DNA of 49,615 bases from Rhodococcus gordoniae (GTDB taxonomy: Bacteria > Actinomycetota > Actinomycetes > Mycobacteriales > Mycobacteriaceae): the NCBI RefSeq assembly GCF_001646655.1, contig NZ_LPZN01000034.1, positions 1 through 49,615 on the forward strand. Direction: 5' to 3'. Both the position numbers and the translations under genes were made by a program. The notes below the pieces were generated by a model. That model was not told where the DNA came from and ran no database searches. It worked only from the letters and a program-made list of their open reading frames with translations. Shown here piece after piece: positions 19,450 through 24,678 of the stretch (position 1 is its first letter; every line of letters begins with the position of its first letter).

Positions 19450-19740
19450 ATGCCGGGACTGCTTCGTGGGGTGGCTCGTACCGCAGTCGTAGCGGGGACT
19501 GCGACAGCCGTCTCCAATCGGGTCTCCCGCCGTCAGGGGGCACGGTGGAGTGCGCAGGAACAAGCACAGTACGGTCGGCCCGAACAGTACGCACCCGAGC
19601 CCGCGCCGACCCCGGCGAGCCCGCCTCCGGGCGGGACGGACCGCATCGCGGCGTTGAAGGACCTCGCCGAATTGAAGGCACAGGGCGTGCTCACCGAGGC
19701 CGAATTCGAGAGGGAGAAGGCGAGGATCCTCGCGTCCTGA
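19450..19740 (+). CDS. SHOCT-domain small protein
   Basis: A 96-residue protein. The N-terminus MPGLLRGVARTAVVAG is a short hydrophobic/basic stretch; the middle is Pro/Gly-rich; the end (about 65-95) is a SHOCT motif, DRIAALKDLAELKAQGVL followed by TEAEFEREKARIL. SHOCT motifs mediate oligomerisation or protein contacts. ATG 19450 has GAGGAG at 19439-19444. It follows the DUF6325 gene by 32 bases and is probably co-transcribed. Confidence 0.85.
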   Translation: MPGLLRGVARTAVVAGTATAVSNRVSRRQGARWSAQEQAQYGRPEQYAPEPAPTPASPPPGGTDRIAALKDLAELKAQGVLTEAEFEREKARILAS

Positions 19741-19815
19741 GCGCGAGTCCGACCTCCGCGTCGGGCGGGCGCGCCCCCGCTCCGACGCGACGACGGGTTC
19801 GACGGGACGAGCCTC

Positions 19816-20031
19816 ATGGGCGACTGGAGGTGTACGGTACACCGGATCGACGAGCCGACCGAGTGCGTGGCAAGGCTGTCGCTGGTACTGGCGGACGAGC
19901 TCACCTCGGCAGAGGTGCAGGACCGCGCTCGTGTGCTGGCCCGCCAGTTCTTCGGACACGACGTCGATGTCGCTGACGTCGAACCGGAATACTGGTCGAC
20001 GGGCATTCCCCGCCGGCCACCGTCGGCGTGA
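19816..20031 (+). CDS. Small hypothetical protein (71 aa)
   Basis: A short protein beginning MGDWRCTVHRIDEPTECVA with a helical middle (LTSAEVQDRARVLARQFFG) and an acidic segment DVDVADVEPEYW. It has strongly G/C third positions and fits the strand and spacing of the DUF6325-SHOCT genes, 75 bases downstream. I do not recognise a family. It may be a dsRBD/DUF1876-like small domain (DUF1876 proteins also carry a WxCxVxIDE-type start), which would be worth a profile search. Confidence 0.6.
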   Translation: MGDWRCTVHRIDEPTECVARLSLVLADELTSAEVQDRARVLARQFFGHDVDVADVEPEYWSTGIPRRPPSA

Positions 20032-20617
20032 ACGGGCACCGTTTCATCGAGGTTCACAACCGTTGGCGGGAAAGGTGTTTCGTTCTGAAGGCATCAAATA
20101 TCCACGCCGGAGGCGCGGTGCGGTCAGCGTGTTGTGGACGTGGCGCGTGAGGTGGCCGGGGGAAGGTGGGGCGACAGGGGGCAACTTCCCTCAGGTCTTC
20201 GGTCACCTCACCCTCGTCGATGCGGCCTGCGCGATCACCGCTGCGGAACGGACCGGAGGGGCCGATGCGGCGAACGAAGGGCCTGGCACCCGACCCGCCC
20301 TCGGGCGGATTGTCGAGACGATCCGAATGGCAAGTGCCCCTTCGGTATACATCGACAGACATGCGGTGTGTAGGTACACCGGCGGAGGCATCGGGTGCGA
20401 CTCTCTACTTCCGGAAGTCCGGACTCGAACCAACTCCGTTGGTACGCAGATGAATCGGAAGAAATGGTACGAATGTCACCGATTCGGCGCGGGCGCTTCC
20501 CCCGGCCCCCCGAACAGGATTCAATGACAGGTGCAGAGGGACTGCCGGGAGCGCAGGGGATACGCTTCCGCATCGCTGCTCCGTCGGGAAATTCGCGAAC
20601 GGTGGCAGGGGACGACA
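20032..20617. other. 586-bp gap without a clear gene
   Basis: Neither strand shows a frame with family resemblance. It holds whatever promoter drives the cold-shock gene at 20618, and GGGGATACG at about 20557 could be a -10-like element. The minus strand has an open frame at 20203-20433, but codon use is poor. Base composition is slightly lower in G+C than the neighbours. Confidence 0.5.
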
Positions 20618-20818
20618 ATGGAGCACGGAGTTGTGCTGTGGTTCGATGCCGATCTGGGACACGGATTCATCCGTGACGACGACGGCACCGAAATCCTGGT
20701 GCATTATTCACAGATCGACGGGAGCGGTTACCGCTTCCTGACAAGTGGTCAGCGGGTCCGGTTCGACGTGGGCTACGGAATCTTCGGCCGGCAGGCGGTC
20801 GACGTGCACGTATGCTGA
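20618..20818 (+). CDS. Divergent cold-shock-domain protein
   Basis: A 66-residue single CSD protein. RNP1 is changed from KGFGFI to GHGFI, and RNP2 reads ILVHYS in place of VFVHFS; VVLWFDADLGHGF corresponds to the VKWFN core. The fold is therefore kept with altered nucleic-acid contacts. ATG 20618 follows GGGG spaced about six bases. The ANTAR-AraC regulator gene starts 32 bases downstream, suggesting co-expression of two nucleic-acid-binding proteins. Probably an RNA chaperone, by family. Confidence 0.85.
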   Translation: MEHGVVLWFDADLGHGFIRDDDGTEILVHYSQIDGSGYRFLTSGQRVRFDVGYGIFGRQAVDVHVC

Positions 20819-20850
20819 CATAGGGGCCGTCCGGACGGTGGGAACGGATC

Positions 20851-21444
20851 ATGGATACACGTGCGAACGAGCGGGTGGGGGAGATCCACCTTTCTCCCTC
20901 GGAGGAGCAGGTGTGGGCCTCGCGGGCTGCAATCGAACGGGCGACGGGCGTGCTGATGGAACGATACGGCCTCGATGCCGGACAGGCGAAGGAATCGCTG
21001 CTTCGGGCCTCCCGCCGTACCGCCGTATCGACGGTGCAATTGGCGGAGGAGGTGCTCGTCTCCGGCCGGACGCATGAGCCGTCCTCGATCCGGGAAGTGC
21101 TGGACGCCGCACCCACGCCTGCGGCCCTGCAGAAGGCCGTCGCCTTCATCGAGGCCGAAGCGGCTCGCCCGATCAGACTGGCCGATATCGCCGCTGCCGC
21201 CGGCGTCGGAGGGCGCGCCCTGCAATACGATTTCGTACGCCACCATCACACGACGCCCGTGCGGTACCTGCGTTCGGTACGACTCGAGCGGGCCCACCGT
21301 GATCTGCAGACCGCCGACCCGAACCGTGAGACGGTGGCCTCGATAGCGGCGCGGTGGGGCTTCTCGTCGCCCGGGCGGTTCGCGGCGCAATACCGGTCCG
21401 TCTACGGTCGATCCCCTCGCGTGACCGGCGCGGGACGGTTGTGA
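20851..21444 (+). CDS. ANTAR-AraC fusion regulator
   Basis: A 197-residue protein with two regulatory domains. Residues 24-70 are an ANTAR RNA-binding domain (IERATGVLMERYGLDAGQAK, then LAEEVL). Residues 92-190 form an AraC/XylS double HTH: LADIAAAAGVGGRALQYDF is the first helix-turn-helix and VASIAARWGFSSPGRFAAQY the second. There is no sensor domain (GAF, PAS or receiver). The combination of antiterminator-type RNA binding and promoter DNA binding in one chain is unusual. ATG 20851 lies 32 bases after the cold-shock gene. Targets are unknown. Confidence 0.87.
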   Translation: MDTRANERVGEIHLSPSEEQVWASRAAIERATGVLMERYGLDAGQAKESLLRASRRTAVSTVQLAEEVLVSGRTHEPSSIREVLDAAPTPAALQKAVAFIEAEAARPIRLADIAAAAGVGGRALQYDFVRHHHTTPVRYLRSVRLERAHRDLQTADPNRETVASIAARWGFSSPGRFAAQYRSVYGRSPRVTGAGRL

Positions 21445-21892
21445 TCCGATCGGATTACCGACGAATCTCCGAAAAACGAATAGACTGCACCGGAAGCGAA
21501 CAATGCGTCGCTGTCGAGACTGCCGACGGGGCGTGAGACTTCCGGCGCAGGGGGTCGGATGCGTCCACCTGCCCCGTCGGCAGTAACTCGAACATGCACA
21601 TTCGATCCCGGCCGGGGCCATTCGGCGTATTCTCGGGATATCGATGATCGCCTGTCACCCCCCTGCGCGGACGATCACCGCCGCCGGGTGGATCCGATGT
21701 CGGCCACTCAGGCGATGCCGGACCCTGCCCGCCCCATTCCCCTGCTCGGGCGACAGGGTTTCGGCGCTGTACAGCGTGCCTCACGCTGCTTCGAATCCGT
21801 CCGCCCGAAGCTTCGGCGTTCACGGACGTGCCGCCCCGATCACCCTCTTCGACACCGCACCCGAACGCGCCCGAATTGGCAGAATCCGAAGT
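21445..21892. other. 448-bp gap with inverted repeat, no gene seen
   Basis: This stretch separates the ANTAR-AraC gene from ligD. The palindrome ATCCGATCGGAT lies at 21444-21455, touching the regulator's stop codon, and a 14-bp inverted repeat spans 21519-21584. The rest shows no convincing reading frame. It could include the ligD promoter and a structured RNA. Confidence 0.5.
21519..21584. repeat. 14-bp perfect inverted repeat, 38-base loop
   Basis: ACTGCCGACGGGGC at 21519-21532 is exactly complementary to GCCCCGTCGGCAGT at 21571-21584. The loop is too long for a simple terminator. It could fold as an RNA element or serve as an operator. It lies 75 bases after the ANTAR-AraC gene. Confidence 0.6.
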
Positions 21893-24208
21893 ATGCCGAC
21901 CCGGACGATCGACGGTCACCGCATCACCCTGACCAACCTCGACAAGGTGCTGTATCCGAGCACCGGGACGACGAAGGGTGAGGTCGTCGAGTACTACGAA
22001 GCGATCGCCGAGGCGATGCTGCCCCACATCGCCGGCCGGGCCACGACCCGCAACCGGTGGCCGAACGGCGTCGGTGGACAGTCCTTCTTCGAGAAGAACC
22101 TTCCGGACCACGCACCGGCATGGATCGAGCGTCGCACTCTGCACCACAAGGACCGGCGGGTCACCTACCCGCTGTTCGATTCGGTCGCCGGACTGGTCTG
22201 GCTCGCACAACAGGCAGCCCTCGAACTCCACGTCCACCAGTGGCGTTTCGACGGAGAGAAGGCCGGACCCGCGACCCGCATCGTCTTCGATCTCGACCCC
22301 GGGCCCGGGGTGGGCCTGGCCGAGTGCGCGGAGGTCGCCCGCCACGTGCGCGACACCGTCGCAGAACTCGGGTGGAACGCCTATCCCGTGACCAGTGGCA
22401 GCAAGGGGATCCACCTGTACGTTCCGCTCGACCGGGTGTTGTCCTCGGCGGGGGCGTCGAAGGTGGCGAAGCAGGTCGCGCGCAATCTCGAGACCACCCT
22501 TCCCGGCCTGGTGACCGCGACGATGGCGAAATCCGCGCGCGACGGCAAGGTCTTCGTCGACTGGAGTCAGAACAACAGTTCCAAGACGACGGTGGCTCCG
22601 TACTCGCTGCGCGGTCGCGACGAGCCGTGGGTTGCGGCCCCGCGTAGCTGGGACGAACTCGACGATCCGGACCTCACGCAACTGCATTTCCGCGACGTGC
22701 TCGCTCGTATCGACGAACTCGGGGACCTACTCGCCGGATTGGATCCGCCGCTCGGCGGCGGCACCGTGTCCGGCGGCGACGCTCTGGACACCTACCGCGG
22801 CAAGCGCGACGCGGCGCGCACCCCCGAACCCGTGCCCGATCGCGTCCCGGACGACGGTCCCGGCAACAGGTTCGTCATCCAGGAACACCGTGCGCGTCGC
22901 CTGCACTACGACCTGCGGCTCGAACGCGACGGTGTGCTGGCCTCCTGGGCGGTGCCGAAGAACCTGCCGGAGACCTCCGGGCGCAACAATCTGGCGGTAC
23001 GGACCGAGGATCATCCCATCGAGTACCTGACCTTCCACGGGACGATCCCGAAGGGCGAATACGGTGCCGGCAGCATGACCGTGTGGGACACCGGCACCTA
23101 CGACACCGAGAAGTGGCGGGACGACGAGGTGATCGTCCGTTTCCACGGCGAGCGGATCGAGGGACGGTACGCGCTGATCCGCACCGAGAAGAACCAGTGG
23201 CTGGCGCATCGCATGAAAGACCAGGCGGAACCGATCCCCGAGCCTTCGTCCGACGGCGGGCCGTCGAAGGTCTTCCCGCACGACCTGGCGCCGATGCTCG
23301 CGACCCCCGGTGACGTCTCGGATCTCGACGCCGAACACTGGGCGTTCGAAGGCAAATGGGACGGATACCGCGCGATCGCGGAGATCGAGGACGGCACGGT
23401 GAGGCTCCGCAGCAGATCCGGACGCGATGTCACCGGCGACTATCCGAAGCTCGTCGAACTCGCGACGATCCTCGACGGTCACCGGGCGGTGCTCGACGGG
23501 GAGATCGTCGCGGTGGACCGTTCCGGCGTGACGAGTTTCTCGATGCTGCAGCGCGGCGTGAACTACGAGTACCGCGTGTTCGATGTGCTGTATCTCGACG
23601 GGGTTTCGCTGCTGCGCAAGACCTACGACGATCGCCGCCGGGTCCTCGAGGCGCTCGCCGCCGCAACGGACGGACTGATCGTCCCCGACCTGCTCCCGGG
23701 TGGCGGACCCGACGCTCTCGACCGCAGCCGGGCGAAGAACTGGGAGGGCGTGGTCGCGAAGCGCCGTGACTCCGTATACCTGCCGGGCAAACGCGGAGCG
23801 GGGTGGATCAAGTCCAAGAACTGGCTGACCCAGACCGTCGTGCTCGGGGGGTATCGGCGCGGCCGCGGCAATCGCGCCTCCACCTTCGGATCCCTGTTGC
23901 TCGGCGTCTACGACGACGGCGAGTTCGTCTACGTCGGCAAGGTGGGTACCGGTTTCGACGCCGAGACCCTCCTGTCGGTGGCGAAGACCATGAAGGGACA
24001 CACGAGTCGTTCGAACCCGTTCGCGAACGAGGTGCCGGCCGCCGAACGCCGCGATGCGGTGTGGCTGCGGCCCGAACTCGTGGGGGAAGTGCGGTTCGGG
24101 GGATGGACGGAAGGAGACCGTGTGCGGCACGCGAGCTGGCGCGGTCTGCGCGACGACGTCGACGCGTCGAGCGTGGTGCGAGAAGAGGAAGCAGGCGCTG
24201 ACTCCTGA
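21893..24208 (+). CDS. ligD: Multifunctional non-homologous end-joining ligase LigD
   Basis: A 771-residue DNA repair enzyme with domains in the mycobacterial order. Polymerase/primase: about 1-290, metal motif FDLDPGPG (132-139). 3'-phosphoesterase: about 320-450, with H332, H338, D340 and R342 in EHRARRLHYDLR plus H382. ATP-dependent ligase: about 465-771, with nucleotidyl-lysine K488 in EGKWDGYR. It fills, trims and seals double-strand breaks with Ku. No ku gene is in this window. ATG 21893 precedes the usual TLTNLDKVLYP start region; a longer frame upstream is not protein-like. Confidence 0.93.
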   Translation: MPTRTIDGHRITLTNLDKVLYPSTGTTKGEVVEYYEAIAEAMLPHIAGRATTRNRWPNGVGGQSFFEKNLPDHAPAWIERRTLHHKDRRVTYPLFDSVAGLVWLAQQAALELHVHQWRFDGEKAGPATRIVFDLDPGPGVGLAECAEVARHVRDTVAELGWNAYPVTSGSKGIHLYVPLDRVLSSAGASKVAKQVARNLETTLPGLVTATMAKSARDGKVFVDWSQNNSSKTTVAPYSLRGRDEPWVAAPRSWDELDDPDLTQLHFRDVLARIDELGDLLAGLDPPLGGGTVSGGDALDTYRGKRDAARTPEPVPDRVPDDGPGNRFVIQEHRARRLHYDLRLERDGVLASWAVPKNLPETSGRNNLAVRTEDHPIEYLTFHGTIPKGEYGAGSMTVWDTGTYDTEKWRDDEVIVRFHGERIEGRYALIRTEKNQWLAHRMKDQAEPIPEPSSDGGPSKVFPHDLAPMLATPGDVSDLDAEHWAFEGKWDGYRAIAEIEDGTVRLRSRSGRDVTGDYPKLVELATILDGHRAVLDGEIVAVDRSGVTSFSMLQRGVNYEYRVFDVLYLDGVSLLRKTYDDRRRVLEALAAATDGLIVPDLLPGGGPDALDRSRAKNWEGVVAKRRDSVYLPGKRGAGWIKSKNWLTQTVVLGGYRRGRGNRASTFGSLLLGVYDDGEFVYVGKVGTGFDAETLLSVAKTMKGHTSRSNPFANEVPAAERRDAVWLRPELVGEVRFGGWTEGDRVRHASWRGLRDDVDASSVVREEEAGADS

Positions 24209-24405: not shown

Positions 24406-24678
24406 ATGACGACGATGCTCGGACATTCCCCGGCTCAGGAGCCTGCACCACAGAAGCCCGCACTCTCGGCTCGCGAGATCGAGATCCTACGGGCCTGGTT
24501 GCTCTGCGAGTCCAAGGCAGAGGCGGCTGCGAGCCTGTTCGTCACCGCAGCCACGGTCAGCACCCACATCGTCCGCATTCGCGAGAAGTATGCCCGGGTC
24601 GGGCGTAGGGCGACCACGAAGACCGCACTGCTCGCCCGCGCCCTGCAGGACGGTGTGATCTCCATCGACGAACTGTGA
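24406..24678 (+). CDS. Solitary LuxR-type HTH protein
   Basis: A 90-residue protein consisting almost only of a LuxR/GerE-type DNA-binding domain: LSAREIEILRAWLLCESKAE (about 24-43), then FVTAATVSTHIVRIREKYA and a C-terminal recognition extension ending VISIDEL. There is no receiver or ligand-binding domain, so activity may depend on expression level or a partner. Its stop overlaps a GTG start of a small ORF (GTGA at 24675). The 197 bases upstream hold no other gene. Confidence 0.82.
   Translation: MTTMLGHSPAQEPAPQKPALSAREIEILRAWLLCESKAEAAASLFVTAATVSTHIVRIREKYARVGRRATTKTALLARALQDGVISIDEL

Follow-up and report, generated by a model that had tools for sequence, protein, structure and literature searches.

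A genuine gene fusion, in which an ANTAR domain is followed by an AraC-type DNA-binding domain in a single chain, is present in the window, i.e., the whole stretch of 49,615 nucleotides of Rhodococcus gordoniae DNA that was analysed (Table 1). The chances are about even that its product is a sensorless AraC-type DNA-binding regulator whose ANTAR half does not recognise canonical hexaloop RNA, its most likely role being that of a protein–protein module, either for dimer formation or for joining another ANTAR protein. ANTAR is a known RNA-binding output domain; if this reading is true, an ANTAR that has lost its RNA contacts and is kept by selection would have moved from reading RNA to a new role, as the N-terminal module of a regulator that binds DNA.

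Domain content and distribution of the fusion

In Pfam searches the ANTAR profile (PF03861) matched the fusion with 45.6 bits against a cut-off of 27.3 (E 6.2e-12), and the isolated first 87 residues scored 48.5 bits with the same profile. HTH_18 matched with 69.8 bits (cut-off 33.6) and HTH_AraC, over residues 160-190, with 28.2 bits (cut-off 26.6), so that the double helix-turn-helix feature of AraC/XylS regulators is present over the cut-off through HTH_18; the solved structures nearest to the fusion by sequence are likewise AraC domains. Neither a sensor domain nor an AraC/XylS effector or dimerisation domain was matched by Pfam in the fusion, the latter being also absent from regulators of the MarA/SoxS kind. 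ANTAR does not occupy here the C-terminal output position behind a sensor or receiver domain; it starts at residue 23 with the AraC part behind it, and this sensorless, ANTAR-first order is unlike the common ANTAR architectures given in the available text of PMC7496416 and PMC8934654. The first-pass annotation had described both domains in one 197-residue chain without a sensor domain and in an unusual order, all of which the profile matches and their positions bear out; its ANTAR limits, 24-70, lie within one residue of those of the profile search. Both ANTAR and HTH_18 exceeded their cut-offs in every one of five scanned homologues, including one whose frame is truncated. Identity to the window protein is 61-80% in four full-length homologues, three of which share with it the start MDT.ANE, whereas the start of the R. 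ruber protein is different.

Table 1. Coordinates of the fusion and of neighbouring features in the window.
Feature	Position	Strand	Basis or remark
ANTAR-AraC fusion gene, 197 aa, ATG start	20851..21444	+	ORF and Pfam
ANTAR domain, residues 23-69, with changes at the RNA-contact positions T32, A43, K47, L51, R55, R56, A58, S60	20917..21057	+	
HTH_18 match of the AraC half, residues 113-191 (the full AraC domain spans about 92-192)	21187..21423	+	
Cold-shock domain gene, 66 aa, ends 32 nt before the fusion	20618..20818	+	PF00313, 62.2 bits
Candidate operator: AATCGG-N20-CCGATT inverted repeat within the conserved stretch that precedes the cold-shock gene	20453..20484	.	in 5/5 sequences compared; six-base arms
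Fusion-ligD gap, no GAF-ANTAR gene inside	21445..21859	.	

The fusion is rare and, among the genomes searched, confined to Rhodococcus. Of 18 Rhodococcus genomes, five carry it intact, namely G000 (the window's own genome), G005, G006 (R. ruber), G008, and G013, two have it broken, and in the remaining 11 it was not found. In G004 an internal deletion has removed approximately residues 31-147 and left the two ends in different frames, and the AraC half of the G007 copy is interrupted by an IS21-like element (IstB_IS21, 201 bits; Mu-transposase C-terminal domain, 44 bits). Outside the genus, no match spanning both domains occurred among the matches listed for overlapping samples of 151 genomes of the family, 397 of the order, and 396 of the phylum (thresholds 1e-22, 1e-30, and 1e-30, with about 21, 8, and 8 first-look candidates scored per genome, respectively). 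The frames with both domains among 233 loci, 14 in number, are all copies of the orthologue group to which the window fusion belongs. A tblastn search of plasmids returned 678 records, and in 115 of these a single place spanned 80% or more of the query; of these full-length look-alikes from outside Rhodococcus four were retrieved, and the three scanned by Pfam were rejected, as ANTAR was found in none. In twelve further loci, chosen for their wide or short frames, no AraC frame had an ANTAR match above 12 bits; one stretch of 11.9 bits in a 790-aa frame was not counted. A scan of named genomes with two narrow patterns returned R. ruber and one weak, unrelated-looking match, and one viral scan gave no match. 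No description of an ANTAR-AraC fusion was found in the open-access full-text literature (subscription papers and supplements lay outside this scope), including the available text of PMC8164766, PMC8934654, PMC7496416, PMC11854999, PMC13293324, PMC4338825, and PMC11796333.

RNA-contact residues and selection

The RNA contacts of EutV comprise R142, K143, K147, K149, E160, Y164, R168, M172, N173, R175, and R177 (PMC8934654). Binding by EutV falls 60-fold with E160A, 55-fold with Y164A, and 8-fold with R142A, and is abolished by M172A and by the triple change N173A/R175A/R177A (PMC8934654); in NasR the W362A substitution, like Y164A in EutV, leads to loss of RNA binding (PMC7496416, PMC8934654). 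In ungapped alignments, in which all eleven contact letters agree with chain 6WSH at an offset of two, these residues map, in order, to R25, A26, R30, T32, A43, K47, L51, R55, R56, A58, and S60 of the fusion. Nine of the eleven positions, including each one most costly to EutV, differ from EutV in all six homologues. Among the ten non-aromatic contacts R25 is kept, position 30 is conservative (R in all six, K in EutV), and eight are changed, in 6/6 homologues. The aromatic residue that stacks on G4 of the hexaloop (column 47) is also replaced in all six, by K in five and by G in R. ruber.

For comparison, 133 unique ANTAR segments were gathered from the loci, of which 128 remained after five partial ones had been dropped. 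F, Y, or W occupies column 47 in 116 of them. The other 12 comprise the six fusions, five GAF-ANTAR neighbours of the fusion (V in three, L in one, M in one), and a relative of those neighbours in G003 (L). Not every contact change is telling, since the antiterminator AmiR has H in the aromatic column, position 43 is A in 71/128 ANTARs, and position 55 is Q in 79/128. The net charge at the eleven contact positions is +5, +5, +4, +5, +2, and +5 in the six fusions and, by the same count, +6 in EutV; a basic face is therefore left in five homologues, the exception being R. ruber with +2. On these alignments, the best reading is that the ANTAR half would no longer recognise canonical hexaloop RNA. 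A conserved loss of RNA-contact residues across homologues, which the first-pass annotation had named as speaking against its own proposal, is what the sequences contain. Since the residues that grip RNA are changed, a DNA-binding regulator with a repurposed ANTAR becomes more likely.

Both halves are under purifying selection, the AraC half being more strictly kept. In ten pairs from five homologues (NG86) dN/dS ranges from 0.13 to 0.46 for ANTAR and from 0.07 to 0.26 for AraC, as compared with 0.31-0.83 for the N-terminal 17 residues (six computable pairs) and 0.10-0.87 for the linker (nine pairs). The values for ANTAR indicate that this half is retained for something. A decayed gene was considered because two of the seven copies are broken, yet the intact copies are under purifying selection, and the idea was rejected.

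Gene neighbourhood and search for RNA targets

The cold-shock gene preceding the fusion is probably cotranscribed with it. It lies beside the fusion or its remnant in four of six relatives, G013, G008, G005, and the broken copy of G004, and is absent from the stretches of G006 and G007. The inverted repeat upstream of it is a candidate operator, to be taken as a lead only. Further pairs of cold-shock and ANTAR matches were noted at G006:C45:27818-28233 (62 nt apart), G001:C44:14360-14773 (60 nt), and G000:C34:133458-134206 (413 nt), spacings from which it follows that such genes adjoin more than once in Rhodococcus. In G013, G008, G005, and G004 a whole glycoside hydrolase family 15 gene is located upstream of the cold-shock gene; the window retains only a remnant of it at 20180-20290, the last 37 residues (62% identity), and the MFS gene of those relatives is likewise missing. 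At 24406-24678 the window encodes a 90-aa stand-alone LuxR-type (GerE) HTH protein, of which a 94% identical copy occurs in the G004 stretch.

A convergent GAF-ANTAR gene, confirmed by Pfam in every case, follows the fusion in five relatives (G005, G006, G007, G008, and G013); in four of them it is located between the fusion and ligD, and the R. ruber stretch shows no ligD. At E 1e-30 this gene is absent from the window genome and from G004. The fusion and this neighbour are not strictly linked, since a neighbour-type gene occurs without the fusion in G003 and, with a broken frame and M at the aromatic column, in G012. A similar small protein, as judged by eye, is encoded after the neighbour-type gene in G008 (L109:8069-8518, minus strand; no Pfam match) and in G012 (L241, near 2157-2600). 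A FastTree phylogeny built from 121 domains contains two non-sister clades, one of the fusions (support 0.961) and one of the GAF-ANTAR neighbour group (0.994); deeper supports are 0.63-0.88. The tree suggests that the aromatic residue was likely lost twice, separately in the fusions and in the neighbours.

Where AraC and ANTAR genes are not fused, they also lie together more often than expected by chance. Six of 80 unique unfused AraC relatives have an ANTAR gene within their locus of about 3.3 kb, the expectation being 0.3-0.5 if 1.2-2.0 ANTARs per Mb are assumed (the window genome has 7 in 4.8 Mb); three of the six pairs belong to a single genus (g107), which leaves about four lineages to be counted, so that Poisson figures overstate the excess. 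Eleven more AraC loci, picked by frame length, added two further ANTAR neighbours. In genus g107 an ANTAR lies in the locus at all six AraC places of at least 68% identity, G530 included, and at none of the four with 50-61% identity. W or F stands in the aromatic column of 14 of the 15 distinct ANTARs that adjoin these unfused AraC genes; the remaining one, a weak match (18.8 bits), has L. Given this linkage, the Rhodococcus fusion looks like the joined form, with its ANTAR changed afterwards. The recurrence of the neighbourhood in Actinomycetota hints that control at the promoter and at the RNA level is coupled more often than described, and such gene pairs offer material for testing it. At one locus, L101 (G684:C23), an AraC gene is flanked by ANTAR genes on both sides, one of which has its ANTAR ahead of a possible sensor region.

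Around the fusion, Rfam gave no match up to E 1 in window positions 19500-22000, and no hexaloop pair was found in 19700-21899, the only locus scanned for it. The leader fold had a z of -0.29. RNAalifold predicted 80 pairs in the upstream region, four with both sides changed, and a positive covariation term; no case for a conserved RNA was seen in this result.

Weighing of the readings and comparison with known systems

In the preferred reading the C-terminal double helix-turn-helix would bind DNA, the N-terminal ANTAR would keep the ANTAR core without the residues by which canonical hexaloop RNA is recognised, and this ANTAR would make the regulator dimeric or join it to another ANTAR protein, e.g., the convergent GAF-ANTAR of the relatives. 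Such a homo- or heterodimer role is suggested by the retention of R25 and E29, to which the dimer-contact pair R142/E146 of EutV maps and which are invariant in five aligned homologues, and by the same aromatic loss in the neighbour. The pair is weak evidence, since R25 is common (116/128 ANTARs) and E occupies position 29 in only 44/128. By residue mapping, the coiled-coil residues L128, I132, L135, and L139 of EutV correspond to E11, S15, E18, and W22, one of them hydrophobic, and only 22 residues precede the ANTAR of the fusion; the missing heptad residues, the commonness of R25, and the absence of the neighbour from the window genome argue against a dimer role. It is rather doubtful that the two proteins form a split sensor-regulator, in which the GAF-ANTAR neighbour would sense a signal and pair through its ANTAR with the fusion, which would carry the signal to DNA. 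The loss of the RNA-stacking aromatic in both ANTARs of such a pair, on different branches, would then signal that an RNA-reading domain had turned into a heterodimer interface. In the window genome, which lacks the neighbour, its place would have to be taken by a different ANTAR protein or by a homodimer.

That the basic face of the ANTAR half still serves to bind RNA or DNA, with changed specificity, the protein thus touching nucleic acid at both ends, is possible but well short of probable. The face left in five homologues, with +4 to +5 at the contact positions, allows for it, K47 and R55 occupy the places of the EutV aromatic and methionine plug, the domain is under purifying selection, and a cold-shock gene adjoins; the low charge and G at position 47 in R. 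ruber, and the lack of any RNA element found at the locus, tell against it. It seems unlikely that ANTAR has no direct role and is a folded linker or remnant, the AraC half acting by itself in the manner of MarA or SoxS. Two of the seven genomes with traces of the gene have it broken, it was not found in 11/18, ANTAR is less constrained than AraC, and unfused AraC relatives exist in short open frames of 123-222 aa; however, ANTAR dN/dS is below 0.5 in 10/10 pairs and below that of the N-terminal 17 residues in the six computed pairs. Least credible, and very improbable, is the proposal of the first-pass annotation that one protein acts on promoter DNA and, by its ANTAR, on canonical hexaloop RNA in the nascent transcript. 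Both domains do exceed their profile cut-offs, and unfused AraC relatives often adjoin ANTAR genes, nearly all with the aromatic; at the residue level the proposal finds no support, with the aromatic and eight of the ten other contacts changed in every homologue, the coiled-coil positions mostly missing, and no hexaloop pair at the fusion locus.

Among known systems, EutV (6WSH/6WW6), NasR (4AKK), AmiR (1QO0), Rv1626 (1S8N), and PAL (6HMJ) resemble the fusion in an ANTAR profile match over the cut-off, and the core positions A31, G33, M36, A46, and A65 are common to the fusion and the six other ANTARs of the window genome. In antiterminators of known structure, however, ANTAR is the C-terminal output, whereas in the fusion it is N-terminal and sensorless, its RNA contacts are altered, and the output domain is of the AraC type. 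The GAF-ANTAR proteins belong to the same ANTAR family, and the copy convergent to the fusion in five relatives also lacks the aromatic; they differ in having a GAF sensor ahead of a C-terminal ANTAR and no DNA-binding domain matched. In G530 and its relatives the AraC half is related to that of the fusion and an ANTAR gene adjoins it (6/6 places at 68% identity or more), but these are two genes, the AraC protein carries an AraC_binding_2 sensor, and the ANTARs keep W at the aromatic column. RamA (7BEF) and SoxS (7W5W), both sequence matches, share with the fusion the AraC-type double HTH without a recognisable sensor; to our knowledge, regulators of this type, unlike the fusion, have no ANTAR domain.
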